This document shows positions 6,239 to 47,118 of a stretch of DNA of 64,000 nt, in pieces (within the stretch, counting starts at the first letter, position 1; every line of letters starts with the position of its first letter). A program made the translations under genes and the position numbers. The notes below the pieces were generated by a model. That model ran no database searches. It had not been told where the DNA came from and worked only from the letters and a program-made list of their open reading frames with translations. Origin of the DNA: Chloroflexaceae bacterium (GTDB lineage: Bacteria > Chloroflexota > Chloroflexia > Chloroflexales > Chloroflexaceae); assembly GCA_025057155.1 (NCBI GenBank), contig JANWYD010000003.1, forward strand, positions 248,001-312,000. Direction: 5' to 3'.

Positions 6239-7279
6239 TCAGCCCGACCGCTCCGGCTCGGGCCGTTCGCCATAGATCGCGTGCAGACCACGGGCGGTCT
6301 GGGCGAACAACTCGATCAGCTCCGGCGGCTCCAGCACGACGCAGCCGTCCCCGTAGCGCAGGAGGATCTGCCGCGTCTGCCAGAGGTTGGTGACCGTGGC
6401 GGTAACGGTGGCGCTGCCATCGGGATGGTAAGTGATGCTGGTATCGGGGAAATAACTGGCGACATCGCGGCGGCGGGCGATCTGTGGCGCCAGCGTGTAA
6501 CGAACGTGGTAGCGCGGGGCAGGGATGCGCTCCGGCGGCAGCACGGCGGGCAGGATCTCCACCGTCCCCGGCACGATCCGGTCCAGGCGGTAGTCAATGG
6601 CGGCGTGGATCGTTTCACCGCCGCGGGGGGTCACTTCAAGCAGGGTGGCGTCCAGGTAGCCGTGGCCTTCGGGGCGAAAAACGACGCCGTATGGCGCAAC
6701 GCGGTGGCGGCGCGGCGTATCGAGGTCAAAGGTGCTCAGGTAGTCGAAGGCCAGTTCGCGGCGCTGCTCACAGGCGCGCTTGACGAGTTCGAGCACCCGC
6801 GGGTCAATCGGCCGCGCGCCCGTGTTCAAGGGCAGGCGCAGGGCCGGGCGCTGGCGGCGCAACTGCGCCTGGCGCGCTGGCGGGAGCAGCAGTTGCACCC
6901 GTTCCAGCAGCGCCCGCACGTGAACGTGTTCAGGTAAGCCGCTGCCAGGGGGAAAACTGGCGTCGAGGAAGGCCAGGGCCTCCATGCAGGCGTCGGGCAG
7001 GTCGAGCAGGGCCAGTTCACCCAGATCGTGGAGCACGTACTGGCGCATCCGGCGGTCGTAGCGGATCTGGCAGCCATACTCCCCCTTCAACGCGTCGAAG
7101 TCGTGCTTGAGCGCTGCCGCCGCCGCTGCCGGGTAGCCCTGTTCGCCCAGCTCTTCGTTGATGCGCGCCACCAGTTCGGCGCTGCTGGCAGGGCCGCGCA
7201 GAAGCGTGCGCACCAGCAGCAAGCGCCGCCGGAAGGTCAGCCAGGAACTGCGCTTGGTGCCGCCAGTGGGGTGATTCAT
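6239..7279 (-). CDS. WYL-domain transcriptional regulator
   Basis: A 346-aa regulator. The N-terminal third (residues 10-80) fits a winged helix domain (LLRGPASSAELVARINEEL, then a DFDALK segment); the central part (about 155-230) fits a WYL ligand-sensing domain (AFDYLST, RVAPYGVVFRPEGHGYLDA), followed by a C-terminal extension with LLRYGDGCVVLEPPEL. WYL proteins often sense nucleic-acid ligands and control defence or repair genes. Its ATG overlaps the stop of the small upstream gene (ATGA at 7276-7279), so the pair is translated together. It is unrelated in position to the second WYL regulator at the CRISPR locus. Target genes are unknown. Confidence 0.82.
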   Translation of the reverse strand: MNHPTGGTKRSSWLTFRRRLLLVRTLLRGPASSAELVARINEELGEQGYPAAAAAALKHDFDALKGEYGCQIRYDRRMRQYVLHDLGELALLDLPDACMEALAFLDASFPPGSGLPEHVHVRALLERVQLLLPPARQAQLRRQRPALRLPLNTGARPIDPRVLELVKRACEQRRELAFDYLSTFDLDTPRRHRVAPYGVVFRPEGHGYLDATLLEVTPRGGETIHAAIDYRLDRIVPGTVEILPAVLPPERIPAPRYHVRYTLAPQIARRRDVASYFPDTSITYHPDGSATVTATVTNLWQTRQILLRYGDGCVVLEPPELIELFAQTARGLHAIYGERPEPERSG

Positions 7280-7512
7280 GGCCCTCGGTTGAGATCATCG
7301 CGTCGCAGACGGGTATAAGCTCCCCAAAGTATAGCATACGCCTCGAACGAACTACGCGCCAGACCGAGCGCGGGGGCCGCGCTGATGATCAGCCGTTCCA
7401 GCGCGGGCGCGTCAAGCTCCCAGCCGTAGCGCTGATTGGCCTCCTGGGCCAGGGGCAGCCAGCCCTCCAGCAACCGCTGGCGCTGTGCCACATCCTCGAT
7501 AGGCTTGCTCAC
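7276..7512 (-). CDS. Small protein coupled to WYL regulator, unknown function
   Basis: Starts at GTG 7512, chosen because GGAGAGAAC precedes it and because upstream sequence in the same frame looks non-coding. The 78-aa product (VSKPIEDVAQRQR...) is acidic and mostly helical, with LEGWLPLAQEANQRYGWEL and a C-terminal YAILWGAYTRLRRDD stretch. It matches no family I recognise. Because it overlaps the WYL gene by 4 nt and is read first, it may modulate the regulator. Confidence 0.55.
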   Translation of the reverse strand: MSKPIEDVAQRQRLLEGWLPLAQEANQRYGWELDAPALERLIISAAPALGLARSSFEAYAILWGAYTRLRRDDLNRGP

Positions 7513-35563: not shown

Positions 35564-37717
35564 CTATGGCTCTAATACCCCTTCAGTCTGCCCCTCGATG
35601 GCAATGCGCACGTCGCGCACAGTCGAGAACTGGCGCAACGTGCGTTCGATCTGCTGGCGGATGGCCGTCACCCGCGCCGCGCCGCCGCCGTAGGCCCGCA
35701 GCTCCGCCGAGAAGTCGGCGGTGGCCACGCCATCGCGGATCACCAGGCTGCGCAGGCGCACCCGCGCGCCCCAGTCGGGCTGGCGACCGGGGTAGCTCAG
35801 CACCTCGGCGGGGGTGGGGATGGCCGTGCTCAGCCCCAGGCCCGGCGGCGGCCCCCACAGCAGTTGCTCCAGCGTGGCGGCGCCGATCTGCAACGTTCGC
35901 GGAATGCGCCGCTGCTCGACGCGCAGTTGCTCGCCCGCCAGCCAGTAGAGTTCCACCGGGCGGACCAGCGGATCGTCCGGGCCGAGGATCGTCACCAGCC
36001 TGGCGGCGAGGAGCCGGTCCTGCCGGTCGCGGATCTGCACGATGGCGCGCTGGGTGTTGATCCGCGCCGGCTCGGCGGGCGGCCAGAGACTATCGAGGAC
36101 CAGACCCGCGCCATCGGGCGCCGCCAGGGGTGTGACCGTCCGGCTCAGGCTCTGGCCGCTTTCAAATGCCAGCCGCAGCGTGACCGGTTCGCCTGGCCGC
36201 TCCAGGCGCGCCTCGACGTGCAGCGGCAGGGTGCTCACCGCGCCGCGGGCCGGCAGGCTCAACGGCGCGCCAATCGGCCCCTGGGGGCGTAGATCGCGGC
36301 AGAGGATCAACCTGCCCCGGCGGTCGGCGCGGTAGTCGTAGGGCTGTCCGGCGGCTTCGAGGATGATGCGGAAGCCGGGGGTGAGCACCTGGGGATAGAG
36401 CTGGCCCGGCGCCGGGCAACCTAGGGAACCATCGGGCCACGTCACGTCCTCGGTAGAACGGACGCCAATGCGTTCGGGCCAGATCTCCGTGCGCGCGGCC
36501 AGATCCTCGCGGGCCAGGGCCACGGCGCGGGCCAGATCGCCGCTCAGCCCGCCGATGAGCACCGGCTGGCTGGCAATGATCCGCTCAGAGCCGTCAGCCG
36601 CGGATTCGACCACCACCTCAACCGTGCCCGGGGTGGCCGTTTCGGGTTCGCTGAAGACCAGGGTGGCGGAGAACGGCCCGGGAATACCGATGTCGGGCCG
36701 CTGCACCATCGTATAGGCGCTGGCCAGCACCTGGCCGGCGGCGGTGCGCAGGCGCACGCCGATGGCCGCCTCGAAGGCGAAGCCGCGCTCGAAGCCCTGC
36801 ACCGCCAGGGGACTCCCGACCACACTGTCACGGGCGGGCGCGGTGATGAGAGCCTGCCGCCCGTCGGCGAAGGGCAACTCGTAGACCCAGCGGTAATAGT
36901 GCCGGCCCACATTGCCCATCTCCACCTGGAAGCGCGGCGGATTGGCGGGGTTGTAGGTCAGCACCCGGCGCTCGAAGGGCTGCACCATCACGTCGCGCGG
37001 CGTACCGGCGACCGGCACGCGCACCCAGAAGGCGTCGGCGATGGGGTAGCCGGCGATATAGAGCCAGTCGAAGAGCGGCGTTTGCCGCACAAAGCGCCCA
37101 TCGCGGTAGGCGACGCCGCTCCGGGTCAGGAATTCCCAGAAGGCGCGCGGAATGCCATAGCCATTCGAGACCTGCACGATGCGCGTGGCGGGGAGATCGG
37201 CAAACTCGGGGGCCGGCGTTCGGCCCTGCGGGGTGAGGCGTTCGGCCACGGCATCGCCGAGACCGAAGCGGGGTTGGGCGCGGGTGTAGGGCCGCAGGTC
37301 GGCGTAGGTGGGAAAGGCGGCATCGGGGTCGCCGGCCACAGGGATGCCGGCCGGCGGCAGGGCGACATACTCAGCGAGGCCGATCGGCACCCGGCCATCT
37401 ATCATGTCGCGGGTCAAAAGGCCGCCGGTGACGAACCAGGGGTTGCGCGGATTGGCGGAGGGGTCGTTGATCTCCATGCGCCCCTTGTCGAAGTACTGCA
37501 CCAGGCGCGACATCTGGGCGTCGCCCTGGAACGCCTCGTTGATCCCCTCGGTAAACGGACTCGGCCCCCAGATCCAGGCATGGTCGCCCCGACCCTGCTG
37601 CACCGGATAGTCAGTGCGCTCCCACACCCGGCGAAAGGCGGGGGAGGCGAAGGCGAGGTTGGAGGTCGCAAGGGACGGCAGCAGCAGCGCCAGCACGAGC
37701 AGTGAGCGGATGATCAT
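35564..37717 (-). CDS. Secreted Chloroflexi-type protein with Gmad2 and GerMN domains
   Basis: A 717-aa exported protein. The start at 37717 gives a signal peptide (residues 1-25, ending LAFA-S). The N-terminal 270 residues have the Chloroflexi module seen in many of its envelope proteins: WERTDYPV, GRMEINDP, then VMVQPFERRVLTYNPANP. An immunoglobulin-like Gmad2 domain follows at about residues 280-375 (ITAPARDSVVGSPLAVQGF) and a C-terminal GerMN domain at about 600-710 (LEQLLWGPPPGLGLSTAIP and VATADFSAELRAYGGG). GerMN/Gmad2 pairs occur in cell-wall or spore lipoproteins; here there is no lipobox. Function unknown, probably cell-envelope binding. Confidence 0.82.
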   Translation of the reverse strand: MIIRSLLVLALLLPSLATSNLAFASPAFRRVWERTDYPVQQGRGDHAWIWGPSPFTEGINEAFQGDAQMSRLVQYFDKGRMEINDPSANPRNPWFVTGGLLTRDMIDGRVPIGLAEYVALPPAGIPVAGDPDAAFPTYADLRPYTRAQPRFGLGDAVAERLTPQGRTPAPEFADLPATRIVQVSNGYGIPRAFWEFLTRSGVAYRDGRFVRQTPLFDWLYIAGYPIADAFWVRVPVAGTPRDVMVQPFERRVLTYNPANPPRFQVEMGNVGRHYYRWVYELPFADGRQALITAPARDSVVGSPLAVQGFERGFAFEAAIGVRLRTAAGQVLASAYTMVQRPDIGIPGPFSATLVFSEPETATPGTVEVVVESAADGSERIIASQPVLIGGLSGDLARAVALAREDLAARTEIWPERIGVRSTEDVTWPDGSLGCPAPGQLYPQVLTPGFRIILEAAGQPYDYRADRRGRLILCRDLRPQGPIGAPLSLPARGAVSTLPLHVEARLERPGEPVTLRLAFESGQSLSRTVTPLAAPDGAGLVLDSLWPPAEPARINTQRAIVQIRDRQDRLLAARLVTILGPDDPLVRPVELYWLAGEQLRVEQRRIPRTLQIGAATLEQLLWGPPPGLGLSTAIPTPAEVLSYPGRQPDWGARVRLRSLVIRDGVATADFSAELRAYGGGAARVTAIRQQIERTLRQFSTVRDVRIAIEGQTEGVLEP

Positions 37718-38614: not shown

Positions 38615-38751
38615 GTCTGTGAACGAAGTTTCCTTGCCTTTCCGCCCCCCACCCAACCTCCCCCCGTTGGGGGGGAGGAGCCGGGCGCCCTCCCCAGGCG
38701 GAGGAGCGTTGGGAGGGGGCAGAGTAGAGTGACAAACGTTGGTTACAGACC
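38615..38751. mobile_element. MITE-like element, GGTCTGTGAAC family, copy 2
   Basis: Left end GTCTGTGAACGAAGTTT, right end AAACGTTGGTTACAGACC (imperfect inverted repeats), with the CCCCCCGTTGGGGGG palindrome inside. It lies between the methyltransferase and the DGR template repeat. About 200 bp of plain sequence separate it from the template. Confidence 0.65.
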
Positions 38752-38955
38752 AGGAACTCGTTCCGCCGAGGGGCGCGCCGCGCCCTGATGTTCGAGACGA
38801 CCGCCACGGTCGTCCCTACTGGCCCGGGCGCGGCGCGGGACTCTTTGGCCGCGCCCGAAGGCGCGACCGGGACCGGCGCTGGCACCCTCCTCGTGCAGGC
38901 GTAACCGCCCCGCACCGCCGGAGCGGTTACGGCGCGGCATCTGGCCGGGCAAGCC

Positions 38956-39066
38956 GGGTGCGTGGCAAGCCGAAAACCCACGTTGTCGTTGTAGTTGTCG
39001 GGCGTATTGTGGTTGCGGTAGGCCGCGCGCAGGTTGATCGGTTGATCGTTCCACGAACCGCCGCGG
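38956..39066 (-). other. DGR template repeat (TR)
   Basis: A 111-bp sequence aligning without gaps to 40727-40837 in the target gene (94 of 111 identical). Read on the minus strand it is rich in AAC codons (seven Asn codons, two Tyr), the usual codon choice in template repeats because A-mutagenesis of AAC can give many residues and never a stop. Of 17 mismatches, 14 are at adenines of this copy. It lies 58 bp downstream of the avd stop and in the same orientation. It would be transcribed as RNA and copied by the reverse transcriptase. Any protein frame across it is incidental. Confidence 0.95.
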
Positions 39067-39124
39067 CGTCGCGCCGATCCACTGCGCAGATTATACCATT
39101 CGCGCGCGGAGGACGACCGCGCGC

Positions 39125-39469
39125 TCACCCCGCCGCTTCGAGCCACCCTCCCAGCAGCCGGCCCACCTCGTCGATCAGCCGGGCGCCGTGCTCATAGCGC
39201 CCCGGCTCGACTAGCTCGAACGCGCGACACAGGCGCCAGTGCAGGCGTAGTTGCTCCAGGCGAATATCGGCCTCGAGCAGGTGTCGCTGGCGCTCGGCCC
39301 GCTGGGTCTTGCCAGCGGCGATCAACTGCTCATACAGATCCAGGGCCGCGTTCTGCACCCGCAGGGCCATCACGAAGCGCTGGCTCCTGGGAAACTGCAT
39401 CGTCACCGGGATCAGCCAGGCGAGCAGGTCGGAGGTCTTCACGAAGACCGGCGCGGGTTCAAAACTCAT
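39125..39469 (-). CDS. avd: Avd-like accessory protein of the DGR
   Basis: A 114-aa all-helical protein matching the bacterial Avd family: FVKTSDLLAWLIPVTMQFPR (first helix with the PRSQRF turn), LDLYEQLIAAGKTQRAERQ, LLEADIRLEQLRLHWRLCRA, and a last helix GARLIDEVGRLLGGWLEAA. Avd forms a pentameric barrel that binds the RT and the template RNA and is needed for mutagenic homing. The basic residues (KTQRAERQR, RLHWRLCR) fit RNA binding. Its ATG overlaps the RT stop (ATGA), and the TR lies just downstream, an order seen in many DGRs. Confidence 0.88.
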   Translation of the reverse strand: MSFEPAPVFVKTSDLLAWLIPVTMQFPRSQRFVMALRVQNAALDLYEQLIAAGKTQRAERQRHLLEADIRLEQLRLHWRLCRAFELVEPGRYEHGARLIDEVGRLLGGWLEAAG

Positions 39470-40542
39470 GGTCTACCTCGCCGGGGCACGACCAGCCCGC
39501 CGAGCAACTGCTCGCGCAGCCGGTAGGTGCTGCCGTGGGCCGCGTGGGCCACCCAGCCGTTGATGCTGGCCTGCACGCGCTCCAGCGGGATCTGGCCATC
39601 GGCGAAGCGGTGGAACAGCCGGCGCATGCGCCGCTTGAAGCGGATCACATTGGGGCGCTTGAGCCGACGATGCTCCGGGTAGAGCCGGAACCCGAGGAAC
39701 GGCACGCCAGTGGCCGTCGGGTAGATCTGCGTCTTGCGGTCGTGGAGCACGAGGCGTAGGCCAACAAGAAAGTTGCTGATGGCCTCGCGCCAGGTGTGCA
39801 GCCGGGCCTTATCGTCGCTGAAGAGCAGCCAGTCGTCGGCGTAGCGCAGGTAGGCGCCGGTGCGCAGGTCCTGATTGACAAAGTTGTCGAGCTCGTGCAA
39901 ATAGACGTTGCCCCAGAACTGCGAGGTGAGGTTGCCGATCGGCAGGCCACGGGCGCGCTCGAAGGGCGTCAGGAGATCATCGCCGGGGAACCACTGCGGC
40001 GTGTACTCGCTTTCGAGCACGCCGGCGCCACTGGCGAGGATCAGGTCAATGAGCGCCATCACCTGCGGGTCGGCGATGCGGCGCGCGAGGAGACCACGGA
40101 GCACCTGGTGATCCACGCTCGGGAAAAACTGGACGATGTCGCCCTGCAGGACGTAGCGATAGCGCCGCGCGTAGTCCTGGTCGCGATCCAGGGCAGCGTG
40201 GGTGCCTTTGCCAATGCGGCAGGCGTAGGAATTGTGGATGAAACGCCGGTCGAAGATCGGCTCGATCACATTGCAGAGGGCGTGGTGCACCACGCGGTCG
40301 CGGAAGGGAGCGGCGCTAATCTTGCGCTTCTTCGGCTCGAAGATGTAGAAATGGCGGTAACCGCCGGGCCGGTATTCGCCCGCGCGCAGTTCGCGTTCCA
40401 GGGTGAAGAGATTGCGCTCCAGATGGTACTCGAAGGCGGCCACCTCGGCCTTGCTGCGCTTGCCCAGGCGCGCCCGGTGAAAAGCAACCCAGAGATTGTC
40501 AAACGAGCAGACGCGCTCGAACAGGTGTTTGTAGGTCTTCAT
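39466..40542 (-). CDS. DGR reverse transcriptase
   Basis: A 358-aa group II-like reverse transcriptase started at ATG 40542 (MKTYKHLFERVCSF); the extension to 40692 is not family-like. RT motifs: SAAPFRDRVVHHAL (motif 2a region), LQGDIVQFFPSVDHQVL (first catalytic Asp), GLPIGNLTSQFWGNVYLHEL (the G-x-x-x-SQ signature of DGR RTs), YLRYADDWLLF (YADD) and GVPFLGFRLYPEHRR. No maturase or endonuclease domain follows, which argues against a group II intron. With Avd it would make error-prone cDNA from the TR. It follows the target gene at 165 bp on the same strand. Confidence 0.95.
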   Translation of the reverse strand: MKTYKHLFERVCSFDNLWVAFHRARLGKRSKAEVAAFEYHLERNLFTLERELRAGEYRPGGYRHFYIFEPKKRKISAAPFRDRVVHHALCNVIEPIFDRRFIHNSYACRIGKGTHAALDRDQDYARRYRYVLQGDIVQFFPSVDHQVLRGLLARRIADPQVMALIDLILASGAGVLESEYTPQWFPGDDLLTPFERARGLPIGNLTSQFWGNVYLHELDNFVNQDLRTGAYLRYADDWLLFSDDKARLHTWREAISNFLVGLRLVLHDRKTQIYPTATGVPFLGFRLYPEHRRLKRPNVIRFKRRMRRLFHRFADGQIPLERVQASINGWVAHAAHGSTYRLREQLLGGLVVPRRGRP

Positions 40543-40573
40543 AAAAAACTCGCGATCCGCGCCTGCGGCGCGG

Positions 40574-40599
40574 GCAAGGGGGAACGCCTTCCCCCTTGC
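40574..40599. repeat. Hairpin in RT 5' leader
   Basis: GCAAGGGGGAA, loop CGCC, TTCCCCCTTGC, a perfect 11-bp stem 32 bp upstream of the RT start. It could limit RT translation or stabilise its mRNA. Confidence 0.55.
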
Positions 40600-40676
40600 A
40601 TCCCCCTTCCCCACGCCCCCGCTATCCGAGCCTGCGGCAGCGACACGGCCCTGCTTACGCCGCAACACAGAACACA

Positions 40677-40707
40677 GGCAGAGACGCCCCACCGGGGCGT
40701 CTCTGCC
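40677..40707. other. Perfect 14-bp hairpin right after the DGR target stop
   Basis: GGCAGAGACGCCCC, loop of 3, GGGGCGTCTCTGCC. On the coding strand it starts at the base after the TAA stop and lies 19 bp beyond the VR. DGR homing in the Bordetella phage is helped by a hairpin/cruciform a few bp downstream of the VR; this position and perfection fit that role. No T-tract follows, so a terminator is less likely though possible. Confidence 0.75.
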
Positions 40708-43700
40708 TTAATTCTTTACACGAGGAGGGTGCCGGGCAAGCCGAAAACCCACGCTGACGTTGTGGTCGTCGGGCGCAGTTTGGAGGCGGCAGGCCGCGCG
40801 CAGGACGATCGGTTGAGCGGCCCACGAACCGCCGCGGAGTGTAAAGCTTTTTTGCGCCGGAGCGGCGCCATCCTCGCGCCCGTCGTGGGGATCATACGGA
40901 TAGTCACGGTACTCCGAGCGCGTCCACTCCCAGACGTTGCCCGCCAGGTCCAGCACGCCCTCCGGCGTTGACCCGCGGGGGAAGCAGCCCACGGCCAGGG
41001 TGGTGAAGCCGTATGTCTGATCGTAGCTCGCCCGCTCCGGGTCAAGTTCAGCGTTTCCCCACGGATAGGTGCGCCGCGTGAGGCCACGCGCCGCGTACTC
41101 CCACTCGGCCTCGCTCGGCAACAGGTAGGTGTGGCCGTCGTTCAGGTGTTGGGTGAGCCAGCGGCAGAAGGCGCTCGCCTCGTACCAACTGATCCCGACC
41201 ACCGGATAGTTGGGACGGGCACTACCAAACGTCTCGTCGTCCCAGTACTCGGGCTGATCCTTGCGCGTCCGGCGCTGCCAGTCCTCCATCCCCTCGATCG
41301 CCGCGTCGTCGCGGGCCAGCCAGGCGCGGGCCGCTTCGTCCCACCAGGGTGCCTCCGGGTCGTAGCCACCCGCCTCGATGAATCGACGATACTGTGCATT
41401 GGTAACCGGGTAGCGCCCGATGGCGAAGGGCGCCAGGGTCAACGGACGGGTGTTGATCTCGTCTTCCGGCCATTTCCGCGCCCGCTTCGCGGTCTCCTTG
41501 TCGCCCTTCTGCAGGTAGTACTGCTCCAAGGCCCGCCCGGCGGCCTCGGCCTCCGCGGCGGTGCTGCCGATCACGAAGCTGCCGCCCGGCAATTCGACCA
41601 TCGCCGGCGGCAGGTCGCAGACACCGGGGCGCGGGTCGCCCAGTTCGGCCAGGATCGCGCCGATGCGCACCAGGTCGCGGGCAGGCACGCTGGTCTCGCG
41701 CAGGGTCTCAGCCATCGCCTGGGCCAGGCGCCGCTTCAGCCCGCTGAAGAGGGCGTCGCGCTGCTCCAGCCAGCCCCAGCCGAGATCGTTGGCGATCTCC
41801 TGCGCCAGGAGCAGGTCGAAGGCGCGCCGGGTCGCCGCGCGGCCGGGCGCTTCGACCAGCCGGCTGAGCAGGCGGTAGGGCACGTCGAGCGAACTGAGGG
41901 CCAGTTGCTCGACGCCGAGCAGGATCGGGCGCCGCCAGCGATCGTCGTTGCGCAGGTCGAGCACGCGGGCCAGCGGGTCGGCCCCGCCGAGCAACTCGAT
42001 GCCGGCCAGATACTCCTGGAACGTCTGGTGGGGGAAGGCGTAGGCGTCGCCGGCCTCGCTGGCCTGGATCAGCCCGGCGCGCTGATCGGTGTATTCCAGG
42101 AACTTGTCTGTGCCTGCAGAGGGGTTGGGGTGCTTGCGCCGCTTCAACTCATCATCTACCATCGTGCGCAGAATCGCGCGGCTGAGGCGGCCGACCTCGC
42201 CGGGCGCAGCGGCGCGGTGAGCCTCGTAGGCCGCCCGGCCCAGGAGCGGGCGCAGGCTCTGAACGTCGGCGTCGGGCAGGCCAATGTAGTCCATCAGCGT
42301 CCCGTACGCGCTGGCCTCTTTGCCGGCGATCTCCCACTGGCCAAGCAGAATATCGATGCAGCGCCCGTAGAGGCTGGCCCGCTCCTCGGGCAGCCGTCCG
42401 TCGTTCAGGTGCACCAGGGCCATCACCGTCATCATCAGCGGCTGGCGCCCGAAGCGTTGCAGGTCCTCGCGGATAGTGATCGCGCGGCGCAGGGCGGCGA
42501 TGCGCTCATCGCGCCACGCTTCGGTACGGCCGTGCAATTCGGCAACCGTGTGGTACCAGGCGTTGACAAAGGCCAGCATCTGGCCGAGGGTCCAGTCGGC
42601 CAGGGTGGCCGTGGGCCAGCCGGGCAACTGCCAGGCGGCGTTGCGCTCGCCTTCGTAGGCCCGCACCCGGCAGGCGACGACGATCCGGCAGGTCGGGTAC
42701 TGTTCAGCAAAGGACCATACCGCGTGCGTGACCTTGCGCCGCGAGTCGTCGCCGGCGACCTCGTCCAGCCCGTCGAGGAGCAGAACTGCGCGGCCCGCCT
42801 CGACCTCGTCGTGGACGGCGGCGGCAAGGCCGGCGTTGGCGCCCCTGGGCTGCAGATGGTCAACCAGGTAGTCCCACAGGTCGCCGGCCTCACCGTGGCG
42901 CTCGGGGGCCTCGGCAAGGCGCTTTGCCAGCGGCAGCAGCGGGGCGAAGATCGGCAGCAGGCGCCCGGATGTCCAGCCCTCCAGGTGTGCCGCCAGGTCG
43001 ATCCGCGGGTCAAGCCCGGCCCTCGCCAGGGTGTAGGCCAAATAGCGCAGGGCGGTGCTCTTGCCGCTGCCCGGCTCGCCGAGCAGCACCAGGCGCGGGC
43101 TGGCAGCGATGGCCTCGGTGACCATGGTCGGACCCAGGAAAGTCAGCTCATCGGCCTCCTTGGCGTAGCGCGCGATACGTTCGTGAGCGTCGCCAGTGAT
43201 CGGACTCGGACCCTCACGGTAGACGAAACTACGTTTCTTGCCGTCGCCGAAACTCGCGTCAGCCGCACCCTCAGCATCAACGGTCGGGTCATCAGGAAAA
43301 CGCGGCTCAACCATGGTCCGCAGGGCGCGCGGGAGCAGGTGGTCGCCAGTATGGGCCCGCAGAAAGGCTTCCGCGTCGAAGCTGGCAAGCTCAGCGCGGC
43401 TGAAGCGCTCACGCCTGCTGACCGCCGTCGTTGCCAGTTCGGTGTAGACCCGGTCGAGGTCAATCGCCAGGCTATCGGCGACGCTGCGCTGCTCGTAGAC
43501 GCCCTGGAGGGGCATGCCGCGGCAGCGGGCGGCCAGACGCTGGTAATAGGCGGCGAGCAACTCGTCATTCGTCTTGCCGTGCCGCCCGTCAATGTAGACC
43601 GTGGCGCGGGCGCCGGCGCCGATGGCGATGGCCTGGCTATTCGTAACATCGCCAACGCTGAGCGTGTCACCGGCGGGAGGGGGAGCAGCGCTGCCGAACT

Positions 43701-43812
43701 GCGCTTCGAGGGCGGCGATGGCGCTGTCGAGCGCGGCCCGCAGCGCCGGGTCAGCGGCGGCGTCGCGCTGCCGGCGCAGGATGGCAATCTGGGCGGCGGG
43801 GTCGTTGGTCAT
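40708..43812 (-). CDS. DGR target: NACHT ATPase with variable FGE/C-type-lectin domain
   Basis: A 1034-aa STAND-type protein. The start is ATG 43812; a TTG 9 nt upstream is less likely. Residues 1-45 are helical and about 50-75 hold a VGDVTNSQAIAIGAGARATV motif shared with the caspase at 44825. The NACHT ATPase has Walker A LLGEPGSGKSTALRYL near residue 243, Walker B LLLDGLDEVAGDD near 345 and the HQTFQEYLAGIELL helix near 595. From about 735 to the end is a formylglycine-generating-enzyme-like (CLec-fold) domain: MVELPGGSFVIGS, YPVTNAQYRRFIEAGGY, LPSEAEWEYAARGL, LDLAGNVWEWTRSEYRDYP and RGGSWAAQPIVLRAA. The last 37-codon segment is the variable repeat. NACHT proteins switch by ligand-driven oligomerisation, so the variable domain is the likely ligand sensor. 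Located in the cytoplasm; no signal peptide. Confidence 0.93.
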   Translation of the reverse strand: MTNDPAAQIAILRRQRDAAADPALRAALDSAIAALEAQFGSAAPPPAGDTLSVGDVTNSQAIAIGAGARATVYIDGRHGKTNDELLAAYYQRLAARCRGMPLQGVYEQRSVADSLAIDLDRVYTELATTAVSRRERFSRAELASFDAEAFLRAHTGDHLLPRALRTMVEPRFPDDPTVDAEGAADASFGDGKKRSFVYREGPSPITGDAHERIARYAKEADELTFLGPTMVTEAIAASPRLVLLGEPGSGKSTALRYLAYTLARAGLDPRIDLAAHLEGWTSGRLLPIFAPLLPLAKRLAEAPERHGEAGDLWDYLVDHLQPRGANAGLAAAVHDEVEAGRAVLLLDGLDEVAGDDSRRKVTHAVWSFAEQYPTCRIVVACRVRAYEGERNAAWQLPGWPTATLADWTLGQMLAFVNAWYHTVAELHGRTEAWRDERIAALRRAITIREDLQRFGRQPLMMTVMALVHLNDGRLPEERASLYGRCIDILLGQWEIAGKEASAYGTLMDYIGLPDADVQSLRPLLGRAAYEAHRAAAPGEVGRLSRAILRTMVDDELKRRKHPNPSAGTDKFLEYTDQRAGLIQASEAGDAYAFPHQTFQEYLAGIELLGGADPLARVLDLRNDDRWRRPILLGVEQLALSSLDVPYRLLSRLVEAPGRAATRRAFDLLLAQEIANDLGWGWLEQRDALFSGLKRRLAQAMAETLRETSVPARDLVRIGAILAELGDPRPGVCDLPPAMVELPGGSFVIGSTAAEAEAAGRALEQYYLQKGDKETAKRARKWPEDEINTRPLTLAPFAIGRYPVTNAQYRRFIEAGGYDPEAPWWDEAARAWLARDDAAIEGMEDWQRRTRKDQPEYWDDETFGSARPNYPVVGISWYEASAFCRWLTQHLNDGHTYLLPSEAEWEYAARGLTRRTYPWGNAELDPERASYDQTYGFTTLAVGCFPRGSTPEGVLDLAGNVWEWTRSEYRDYPYDPHDGREDGAAPAQKSFTLRGGSWAAQPIVLRAACRLQTAPDDHNVSVGFRLARHPPRVKN
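40727..40837 (-). other. DGR variable repeat (VR)
   Basis: The last part of the target gene, homologous to the TR. Relative to the template, residues change N to A, D to A, N to V, Y to C, N to L, H to Q, N to T, T to A, N to D, Y to H, D to V, N to S and T to R. All but the H, Y-to-H and one base of the T-to-R codon changes arise from template adenines. The invariant block GGCAAGCCGAAAACCCACG (plus strand) at the 3' side is the candidate homing initiation (IMH) region. Confidence 0.95.
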
Positions 43813-43849
43813 GCCTTGCAATCCTTACTCCTGAAGCCCCGGCATATGG

Positions 43850-44220
43850 TCAACAGGACGGTGATGACTGGTGACCAGGAATGCCAATGATGGCGGTCAT
43901 GCCAGGTGGCGCCGTGACCGGGAGATTGACGCGAGCCAGAAGGGCGACTCGGGCAGCGGTCACCCGCGTCATTGCTTGGAGCAACTCCTGATGCCAACGA
44001 TCGCCGGTTGGCAGTGCTGATCGAGATATCGCGCAATGGTTGTGAAGATATTTTCCAGGCCGTTGTAGAACGAGTGGAGGATCGAAGCAAGCGCGGTAAG
44101 CTCAACCAGATCAGGAGGCTGATGCCTGACACGCTGAAGCAGGGGCTCGTAGGCCGCGAGGAGTTGATCCAACTGGTTCAACTCAAAGCGCACTCTCGCC
44201 TGTACAGGATTAGCCGACAC
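43850..44220 (-). pseudogene. HEPN-domain protein, frameshifted
   Basis: Starts at GTG 44220 with AAGGTGG upstream and encodes VSANPVQARVRFELNQLDQLL...LHSFYNGLENIFTTIARYLDQ, a HEPN-like RNase fold. Near 44010 the frame breaks: the annotated frame ends as QPAIVGIRSCSKQ, while another frame continues LPTGDRWHQELLQAMTRV to a stop at 43850, which is the conserved second half of this HEPN family. So one base is missing or two added. Either it is a real null mutation or a sequencing error. It overlaps the partner gene by 11 nt. Confidence 0.75.
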
Positions 44221-44506
44221 GTCGCAGGCCACCTTCGTTCTGAAGAAACTGGACAAAGGGATCCGAATCGTCGAGATCCACCAGGTCGACCGGACGCTCG
44301 AGCTCAAAGAGGAGGCGTCCCAGCAGGTGGAAAAAGCGGTCCTTTGGACACCCCTGGACGGCGAGGTCAATATCGGAGCGATCAGTGAGCGTGCCCGCTG
44401 CGCCTGAGCCGAAGAGAAACACCGCCGAGCAACCGCCTGCCTTCAAAATAGCAACCGCTCGGGCGATATCCTGCTGAAGCGCTGGTGGAATTGGCTGATC
44501 AATCAT
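44210..44506 (-). CDS. MNT-type nucleotidyltransferase (antitoxin-like)
   Basis: A 98-aa minimal nucleotidyltransferase. The pattern GSGAAGTLTDRSDIDLAV (residues 35-52) is the G-S-x10-D-x-D catalytic motif, followed by LELERPVDLVDLDD with the third acidic residue. In MNT/HEPN modules it AMPylates or otherwise inactivates the HEPN toxin. The start at 44506 follows GGAGAACC-like sequence. It is coupled to the downstream HEPN gene. If the HEPN is truly dead, this gene is an orphan antitoxin. Confidence 0.85.
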   Translation of the reverse strand: MIDQPIPPALQQDIARAVAILKAGGCSAVFLFGSGAAGTLTDRSDIDLAVQGCPKDRFFHLLGRLLFELERPVDLVDLDDSDPFVQFLQNEGGLRRVG

Positions 44507-44606
44507 GGTTCTCCGTGTTCGGTTCCCTGCGCCGCCTTCCGCGTCACCCTTCAACTGAGGCGCGGAGGGCCGCGCCCTCCTGGACCCTTCCATTGGGCAG
44601 GGGTAT

Positions 44607-44824: not shown

Positions 44825-46528
44825 CTACCCCTCGCTCATCTTCCGCACCGCGTCGGCGATCTGCGTGGCGATGGGCAGCACCGCCGGCAGCGCGGCGGCG
44901 AGGTTCTGCGCCGCCTGTTTCAGGCCATCGGCGCTGATCTGCACCAGCGTCTTGTTCGGTTGCGCCTTCGTCGCCTGCTCAACCGCGGCCTTCGCCGTCT
45001 CGGCGACCGCCTCGGCCTCGCTGGCGCGCTCCGCCGGGGCTTTCTGCAGTTCCGCGCTGAGCTGCTCGATAAGCTGCTGAAGCTGCGCCTTCGTCGCGGC
45101 GTCGCCGCGGGGCGATGCACCAATACTCTGCGACACGTTGCTCAGGGTGGATTTGATGTTCAGTAGTCTGGGAATTGCGTCTTCTGGTATCGCCCCCCTC
45201 CCAACCTCCCCCCGCTGGGGGGAGGAGTCCGGCGCCCTCCCCCCGCTGGGGGGAGGGCTGGGGAGGGGGGCGGCAGGGGCGGGAGATTTATGCACAAACG
45301 TCCCACTGCGCTTATCAATGTTGCCCTCGGCGTAATCACCGCCGCCGGTATCCACGTTGTGCACCGTGCTCTGCGCCCCGCGCCCGATGGCGATGCCGCT
45401 GCCCTTGATGTCGCCGGTGCTGATCCGGTCCCCCTGGGTGATGTCGGTCTTGATGATGTCGCGCCCGGCCACGTCACCGATGCTGATATTGCCATACCGG
45501 CCGCCGCCGCCGAAGTGCACCCCGCCGTGCTGGGTTTGCTGGTTCACGGTGACGTGGCCGTGCACATCGCCAATGGCCGCGCCGGTCTGGACGCTGCCGC
45601 CGATGCTCTGCTGGTGCTGGCGCAGCATGGCCTGGCTGTAGGCCGGGTTGACCGCGCGCACCGCGGTTTCCTCAGGCAGTGCGCCGGAGGCGTCGAAGGG
45701 GCCCAGGGCGGTCGCGCCGCGGTAGAGCGCCACGGCGAACGGCCCGACGCCCTTGAGGATGGTCAGTTCAGGTTCCTGCTTCTCGCCGTACATCTGGCGT
45801 ACGGCCGCGGGGATCAGGCGCGGCACGGCCTCGTCGAGGGCGAAGTAGAGATGGGTATAGAGGTCGAAGACGCTGATGTAGCCGTGGTTGCTGGGCGTCC
45901 CCTTGCCCTGGAGGCCATCGAGCAGAGCCTGGGTAAAGAGGGTGAGCGGCCCGGGGCCGATGAAGGAGTACTGGTTCTCGCGGCAGGCGCTGATGATCAC
46001 GCGGCCCTCGCCGGTGCCGAGCAGCGCGGCGGCGACCGGCGGCGGCAGGGGGGCGCCGGTGGGCGGGGCCTCGCCGGGGGCCAGCACGGGCGAGATTTCG
46101 CCCGCGTGGCAGGCGTTGACGATCAGCAGCAGGCGCTTTGCCTTGATGGCCCGTAGCTTCGCGATCAACTCGGCCTCGCGCAGGCCCGTGCCTGCTGCGA
46201 CCTTGCGCCCCTCCAGGCGGGTGTCGTGGGTGGTCAGGTAGTAGCCGTCGTCGCCGTACTCGCCGTGGCCGGCGTAGTAGATCAGCACGGTATCGCCTTC
46301 GCCGACGCGCGCCGCCAGGGCGTCGAGGGCCGCCAGGACGCCCTCGCGGGTGGCGGCGGCGCCGCTGAGCAGGGTGACCTGCTCCGGCGGGTAGCCGCAG
46401 AAGTGCGGGTCGCGCAGCACGCCGGCGACGGCGATGGCGTCGGCGGCGGTGATCGGCACATTGAGCCGCGGCGCATGGGCGTAGCTGCCAATGCCGATCA
46501 GGAGGGCGTGGGCGGTGTCAAAGGCCAT
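44825..46528 (-). CDS. Caspase-like protease with NACHT-partner motif
   Basis: A 567-aa C14 (metacaspase-like) protein from ATG 46528, with AAAGGAAC upstream. The caspase domain (residues 5-230) shows ALLIGIGSYAHAP, the catalytic His in YYAGHGEYG and the catalytic Cys in LIVNACHAGEI, both intact. Residues about 300-385 have repeated beta-strands (SIGDVAGRDII, TGDIKGSGIAIGRGAQSTV) matching the N-terminal motif of the DGR target. Residues about 400-430 are encoded by an inserted G/C palindrome (APLPSPPPSGGRAPDSSPQ, then RGEVGRG). The tail from about 440 is helical, with LQQLIEQLSAELQKAP. It likely cleaves proteins on signal, as a death effector; the inference comes from family and neighbourhood. 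Confidence 0.85.
   Translation of the reverse strand: MAFDTAHALLIGIGSYAHAPRLNVPITAADAIAVAGVLRDPHFCGYPPEQVTLLSGAAATREGVLAALDALAARVGEGDTVLIYYAGHGEYGDDGYYLTTHDTRLEGRKVAAGTGLREAELIAKLRAIKAKRLLLIVNACHAGEISPVLAPGEAPPTGAPLPPPVAAALLGTGEGRVIISACRENQYSFIGPGPLTLFTQALLDGLQGKGTPSNHGYISVFDLYTHLYFALDEAVPRLIPAAVRQMYGEKQEPELTILKGVGPFAVALYRGATALGPFDASGALPEETAVRAVNPAYSQAMLRQHQQSIGGSVQTGAAIGDVHGHVTVNQQTQHGGVHFGGGGRYGNISIGDVAGRDIIKTDITQGDRISTGDIKGSGIAIGRGAQSTVHNVDTGGGDYAEGNIDKRSGTFVHKSPAPAAPLPSPPPSGGRAPDSSPQRGEVGRGAIPEDAIPRLLNIKSTLSNVSQSIGASPRGDAATKAQLQQLIEQLSAELQKAPAERASEAEAVAETAKAAVEQATKAQPNKTLVQISADGLKQAAQNLAAALPAVLPIATQIADAVRKMSEG
45185..45277. repeat. G/C palindromic repeat inside the caspase gene
   Basis: The CCCCCCTCCCAACCTCC and CCCCCGCTGGGGGG core of the GGTCTGTGAAC MITE family, here within an open reading frame and without disrupting it. 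It encodes a Pro/Ser/Gly-rich linker. Confidence 0.8.
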
Positions 46529-46806: not shown

Positions 46807-47118
46807 GGTCTGTGAACGAAGTTTTTCGCTAACCCCGCCCCCTCCCCAACCCTCCCCCGCTGGGGGAGGGAGCCCGGCTCCTCCCCAACGGGGGAGGCCG
46901 GGTTCTCAGGTGTAGGGCTTTCCAGCCCATCTTCGCATCGCATGCGCCATCTGGGGCATTGGGACGCCCAACGCCCCCCTCTCCCGCTTGCAGGAAAGGG
47001 GGTAGGGGTGTAAGCGCACGGGAATGCCAAAAACCCCCCTTCTCGCTTGAACAACCCTACACCTGAGAGGGAAGGCCGGGAGAGTAGCGGAAAGGCCAGG
47101 AAACGTCGTTCACAGACC
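46807..47118. mobile_element. MITE-like element, GGTCTGTGAAC family, copy 3, interrupted
   Basis: Left end GGTCTGTGAACGAAGTTT (46807-46824) and right end AAACGTCGTTCACAGACC (47101-47118) are inverted repeats agreeing at 17 of 18 positions. Another element (46904-47068) sits inside. The gap 46529-47136 is otherwise non-coding and carries AATAAC and TATACC stretches near 46570 and 46785 of no clear meaning. Confidence 0.8.
46904..47068. mobile_element. MITE-like element, TCTCAGGTG family, copy 3, nested
   Basis: Ends TCTCAGGTGTAGGG and CCCTACACCTGAGA, 165 bp. Flanked by GGGGAGGCCGGG and GGGAAGGCCGGG (11 of 12 identical), consistent with a 12-bp target duplication within the older element. Confidence 0.8.

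Follow-up and report, generated by a model that had tools for sequence, protein, structure and literature searches.

A complete diversity-generating retroelement with a NACHT receptor target in a Chloroflexaceae bacterium, and a candidate caspase partner

Can a bacterium rewrite the sensing end of an intracellular receptor, and to what would such a receptor signal? The question was raised by a locus in the draft genome of a Chloroflexaceae bacterium (5.1 Mb; the single genome of its species), in which we analyzed a window of 64,000 nt; coordinates given without a locus label are positions in this window. The minus strand from 38,777 to 43,812 carries a complete diversity-generating retroelement (DGR): a target gene that encodes a NACHT domain and a formylglycine-generating enzyme (FGE)-fold domain and contains a variable repeat (VR), a DGR-type reverse transcriptase (RT), the accessory protein Avd, and a template repeat (TR). 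We consider it likely that this DGR is a working one, and that it serves an intracellular sensor resembling the NOD-like receptors (NLRs) that signals to a caspase encoded upstream. The features of the DGR, all on the minus strand, are as follows.

38777..38970, minus: structured RNA tail directly 3' of the TR
38956..39066, minus: TR, 111 bp, an ungapped match to the VR
39125..39469, minus: Avd accessory protein, 114 aa
39466..40542, minus: DGR reverse transcriptase, 358 aa
40677..40707, minus: hairpin with a perfect 14-bp stem just past the target stop, seen in the sequence and its fold
40727..40837, minus: VR, at the 3' end of the target gene, an ungapped match to the TR
40708..43812, minus: DGR target, 1034 aa, a NACHT STAND NTPase with a C-terminal FGE/C-type-lectin-fold domain

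The retroelement and its adenine pattern

The TR (39066-38956) and the VR (40837-40727) aligned without gaps over 111 bp and differed at 17 positions, 14 of which were adenines in the TR (six A-to-G, five A-to-C, and three A-to-T changes). Given 26 adenines among the 111 positions, the hypergeometric probability that at least 14 of 17 differences would fall on adenines was 2e-8. All 14 of the changed adenines occupied codon positions 1 and 2 of the target frame, and when the VR was treated as the template, just 1 of the 17 differences was at an adenine. A preliminary description of this DNA had proposed a complete, adenine-directed DGR in the order target-RT-Avd-TR; our analysis recovered all of the parts in that order on the minus strand and reproduced the counts and coordinates of the repeats exactly. 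A DNA search with the TR found one copy each of the TR and VR in the draft genome, and neither this search nor a search with the RT yielded a second VR or a second DGR.

The RT matched the Pfam RVT_1 domain, and its best match in the PDB was the RT of structure 8ub7 (E 1.5e-51), in which the partner chain is Avd. Both motifs named in the preliminary description, the DGR-type SQ motif (GLPIGNLTSQ) and the catalytic YADD motif, were present in the RT, and the family assignment of Avd was borne out by a match to NF033474 above the cutoff (E 4.5e-27), as well as by matches to PF22296 (bAvd) and to the Bordetella Avd structure 4dwl. The RT and avd genes (40542-39466 and 39469-39125) overlap by 4 nt. 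When compared with the corresponding genes of a locus from the same genus, L059, the ratio of nonsynonymous to synonymous substitution rates (dN/dS) was about 0.11 for the RT and about 0.16 for Avd; therefore, both genes are under purifying selection.

The RT search found one DGR RT in the genome. The only other RT match was on contig C35 (L112, 3210-5715); it immediately precedes a cas1-like gene and is probably a CRISPR-associated RT. A weak RT-like match in the window at 37274-37645 (26% identity, E 0.002) was located inside a germane-domain gene and was judged to be a chance match.

DGRs are common in phages, and one could propose that a prophage or phage-borne DGR came to adjoin a host gene by chance. 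Phage relatives of the RT had identities of 37 to 39%, but the cellular relatives were much closer (77 to 83%), no phage record contained an RT at 60% identity or more, and the neighboring genes that we examined were not phage genes. We rejected a prophage origin, which we consider extremely unlikely.

The RT was found in 27 of 150 related genomes at E values below 1e-40, and the carriers included Oscillochloris sp. ZM17-4, Ca. Chloroploca species, and a Herpetosiphonaceae metagenome-assembled genome (MAG). Where the RT, Avd, and TR occurred together, the order was nearly always RT-Avd-TR, and some loci had two targets. Among the DGR loci of this set, only L093 (7709-9320, oriented) has Avd before the RT on the opposite strand, and its TR is directly after the RT. 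With the TR of each relative defined as the copy just downstream of avd and the differences counted without a filter on the base, 351 of 367 TR/VR differences (95.6%; 30 pairs from 25 loci) were at adenines. In the closest clade, the TRs were alike among loci, and each VR departed from its own TR chiefly at adenines. Thus, two expectations of the preliminary description held among the relatives: their VRs differed from the TRs at adenines, and the RT/Avd pair was not missing, as the RT/Avd/TR unit occurred with NACHT-FGE targets across the family. In L059, the TR (7189-7300, oriented) stops after 50 bp at GCCGATA tandem repeats, and the RT, Avd, and VR are retained; this may reflect decay of the DGR or a fault in the assembly.

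About 195 nt after the TR (38970-38777) could be aligned across relatives. RNAalifold placed 30 pairs in this tail, 18 of them with kept double changes; 88.5% of the cells were paired, compared to 36 to 49% in slid controls, and the covariation score was reached by none of 500 shuffles. When a covariance model was trained on 12 loci, it found the tail 3' of the TR in loci outside the training set as well, with a few weak matches near the threshold, and Rfam contained no meaningful match for the tail. In the DGR of Bordetella phage BPP-1, the spacer that follows the TR folds, recruits bRT-Avd, and primes cDNA (PMC12875486). The tail in the window is likely the DGR RNA spacer, a counterpart of the BPP-1 spacer that would recruit RT-Avd and prime cDNA synthesis. 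It is at the end of the operon because the RT lies upstream.

A DGR that is genuine but now inactive, or nearly so, would also leave a TR/VR pair as the record of past homing, with the sensor of the receptor frozen. The three differences that are not at adenines bear on this point. C38962 lies beyond the conserved 3' end of the repeat, and C39009 is private to the VR of the window. At T38993, the TRs of loci L012 and L061 carry a C, so the difference is probably a C-to-T change in the TR of the window, and it resembles drift of the TR after the last homing event. Three of 17 is somewhat more than in the relatives, and homing may therefore be slow or past, which counts against a DGR that is working at present. 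The broken TR of L059 points in the same direction, as does a NACHT-FGE protein elsewhere in the genome that has a DGR-like end without its own DGR (described below). On the other side, the RT and Avd are intact and under purifying selection, the RNA tail is retained, and the great majority of the differences are still at adenines. We consider loss of activity unlikely.

The NACHT-FGE target

The C-terminal part of the target matched the FGE-sulfatase domain (E 4e-49), and sequence relatives of the C-terminus included the Treponema variable protein TvpA (2y3c). The NACHT score was 0.5 bit below the Pfam cutoff, the NACHT domain was matched by 13 of 13 aligned members, and the target carries a Walker A motif and the sequence LLLDGLDE. 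The AlphaFold2 model of the target matched the NACHT domain of NLRP3 and FGE-fold structures; the NACHT domain was modeled well and the variable FGE end too poorly for the model to show where the variable residues sit on the fold. Outside the VR, the target was 40% identical to the L059 target, with a dN/dS of about 0.6. The target open reading frame (ORF) has an alternative start, a TTG at 43821. The hairpin just past the target stop may be a terminator or a cruciform of the initiation of mutagenic homing (IMH) type. It was not seen at the same place in close relatives and was therefore rejected as a feature of the family.

C-type lectin (CLec) folds bind many ligands, and DGR targets elsewhere act at surfaces. 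Hence, the receptor might serve self/non-self or surface recognition in a filament or mat instead of antiviral defense, and the targets of some relatives have N-terminal hydrophobic stretches that resemble signal or membrane segments. However, the NACHT architecture and the caspase partner described below point to an intracellular alarm, and a domain search matched no surface-anchor domain in the target of the window. In our judgment, a role in surface or self recognition is improbable.

The same genome encodes a second NACHT-FGE protein on contig C8 (L108, 3466-6507, minus strand). This protein has the motif that we designate M2 (see below) and a DGR-like variable end (VRCNARSRSRPDNAYLSWGLR), which is extended by repeat sequence. 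No DGR of its own kind was found for it in the genome, and it is probably an orphaned former DGR target.

The upstream caspase and the shared motifs

A caspase gene (46528-44825) is located upstream of the target gene on the same strand, 1 kb away. The features that we examined, again on the minus strand, are listed below.

43597..43671, minus: motif M3 in the target N-terminus, aa 48-72, common to the caspase tail
44825..46528, minus: caspase (C14) protease, probable effector
45293..45607, minus: array of four short motifs, M1 to M4, in the caspase tail

The protease matched PF00656 (E 6e-15), its match to NF047832 was under the family cutoff, and the His and Cys motifs (YYAGHGE and NACHAGE) were present. 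Motifs M1 to M4 in its tail were conserved in the caspases of relatives. Single motifs recurred near the N-termini of NACHT proteins, one or two in each, and many of these proteins were DGR targets. Specifically, the target of the window carries M3, the targets of Ca. Chloroploca mongolica (L094) carry M4 and M1, both targets of Oscillochloris locus L060 carry M2 with M1, and L083 and L078 have M2. In the genome of the window, M2 was present in the other NACHT-FGE protein, and M3 was present in an NTPase at a contig end.

To set these matches against a background, we used shuffled N-termini, of which 1 in 2,300 reached an E value of 0.01, and 2,732 ORFs of DGR loci that were picked without regard to the motifs. 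Thirteen of these ORFs were hit by the motif model at E values of up to 0.05. Eight of them encode DGR-associated NACHT-FGE proteins and four are small ORFs; the remaining one is the window caspase, which was used in building the model. M3 in the target had an E value of 0.0016 in this set. In addition, the caspase gene of Ca. Chloroploca asiatica (L147) overlaps one that encodes a NACHT-FGE protein with M4, and the order is repeated in L148; apart from this caspase-NACHT order in L147 and L148, the tblastx synteny was too noisy. In the model of the target, the M3 segment falls in a disordered stretch that links an N-terminal helical hairpin to the NACHT domain, as would be expected for a short docking motif.

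Several observations weigh against a link between the target and the caspase. The pairwise M3 match was modest, as 7 of 1,000 shuffles reached its score, and the motif was not universal: the L059 target and several targets of other relatives were without it. A decayed MNT/HepT pair separates the caspase from the target, the motifs have a low-complexity composition, and the AlphaFold2 model of the caspase array had low confidence and was uninformative (mean pLDDT of 50). The DGR might then diversify a NACHT receptor whose effector is elsewhere, and the Gly-rich motif shared with the caspase would be a chance or generic low-complexity likeness. Against this stand two observations: NACHT proteins carry distinct, position-specific motifs near their N-termini far more often than shuffles and background ORFs do, and caspase and NACHT-FGE genes are adjacent or overlapping in Chloroploca-type genomes. 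We regard an effector elsewhere as doubtful but plausible. The case for the caspase as partner of the target rests on the pattern across the family instead of the pairwise match of M3. Going a step further, we tentatively suggest, at somewhat less than even chance, that one caspase is a common hub and death protease on which different STAND/NACHT receptors of one cell, both DGR-rewritten and fixed sensors, converge through four different docking motifs, with separate receptors for each motif.

The intervening pair (43816-44593, minus strand) is what remains of a type VII toxin-antitoxin pair: an MNT nucleotidyltransferase gene and, after it, a HepT-like HEPN gene that carries a frameshift and is cut short. 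A G/C-rich repeat of 67 nt is dispersed in the window at 38643-38709, 45191-45257, and 46836-46902, with copies that are 70 to 75% alike; one copy is read in frame within the caspase tail, where it separates the motif array from the C-terminal helical region. One of the four small ORFs hit by the motif model, at L061 (13021-13683, plus strand), encodes a 221-aa protein with M1 and M4; it adjoins the second DGR target of the Herpetosiphonaceae MAG, and its product may serve that locus as an adapter or effector.

Proposed mechanism and known systems

We propose that the TR is transcribed together with its structured 3' tail, and that the RT-Avd complex would copy the TR RNA with errors at adenines. 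The resulting cDNA would replace the VR in the terminal part of the NACHT gene, and up to about 25 positions of the FGE/C-type-lectin-fold sensor domain would be rerandomized, with the TR unchanged. The encoded protein most likely works within the cell as an NLR-like sensor for molecules of phages or other invaders. Binding of such a molecule by the FGE end would cause the NACHT domain to oligomerize and expose M3, and the N-terminal M3 would recruit the upstream caspase by homotypic contact with the matching tail motif. The infected cell would die and thereby protect its filament. The genome contains reaction-centre genes and thus belongs to a phototroph, with kin among filamentous Oscillochloris and Ca. 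Chloroploca; this supports the proposal, as such a lifestyle has been linked to DGRs of this type (PMC10907252).

The preliminary description had rated the locus highly for its NACHT target. The NACHT target stood, but this reason for the rating calls for revision: DGR-diversified STAND/NACHT-FGE sensors in multicellular bacteria have been described (PMC7159879, PMC8195603, and PMC10907252), and the last of these papers also names filamentous Chloroflexi. The DGR in the window is a further example of the recently described hypermutating immune receptors of bacteria, whose NACHT-lectin sensors have been published (Kaur 2020, 2021; Dore 2024). It resembles the clade 5D DGRs (Dore et al. 2024; PMC10907252) and the STAND NTPase-FGS systems of Kaur et al. 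2021 (PMC8195603), a likeness judged by target architecture and setting: there is a central STAND NTPase (NACHT), a C-terminal FGE/CLec domain with the VR, an adjacent RT and Avd, a peptidase and an adapter nearby, and a host from a group of filamentous phototrophs. The locus differs in that it has a single target, that its adapter is a short motif that matches one of four in a caspase array, and that the TR comes last and is followed by a covarying RNA tail. In addition, no Pfam effector-associated domain (EAD) was found in the target, its relatives, or the caspase.

The DGR of phage BPP-1 (mtd, avd, TR, and brt) likewise has an RT, Avd, an adenine-directed TR/VR pair, and a VR domain with the C-type lectin fold, and among solved structures, its RT-Avd complex (8ub7) comes closest to the window RT. 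In contrast, the TR of BPP-1 precedes the RT, whereas the order in the window is target-RT-Avd-TR, and the target is a cellular NACHT protein and not a tail fiber protein.

Coupling of NTPases to effectors by small shared domains is the EAD principle (PMC8195603), and the version with amyloid-like motifs is found in the bacterial amyloid signaling sequence (BASS) pairs (PMC7889193). As in the EAD-coupled systems (Kaur 2020, 2021), the same small adapter, M3, is on the NTPase target and the nearby caspase, but it belongs to no described Pfam EAD family; it would work like an EAD pair without being filed as one. As in the NLR-effector pairs with BASS motifs (PMC7889193), a short Gly/Val/Ile-rich motif occurs close to the N-terminus of the NLR and a second time in the C-terminal portion of the effector, whose gene is nearby. 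This likeness concerns motif composition and position; the effector in the window is a caspase and not a Bell-domain protein, and it combines four distinct motifs. A search of open papers, which is weak evidence of absence, turned up neither a caspase that joins different docking motifs in an array nor the covarying TR tail of this clade; the multi-motif caspase hub may be undescribed so far.

DGR-diversified NACHT sensors are strong candidates for bacterial receptors that generate diversity before they meet their target. This locus offers a new clue to the wiring between receptor and effector. It is a compact, testable unit in which a sensor, a DGR, and a structured template RNA are combined with a probable caspase effector whose tail has the corresponding docking motif, and the array of four motifs gives a concrete prediction of which receptor would dock to which motif.

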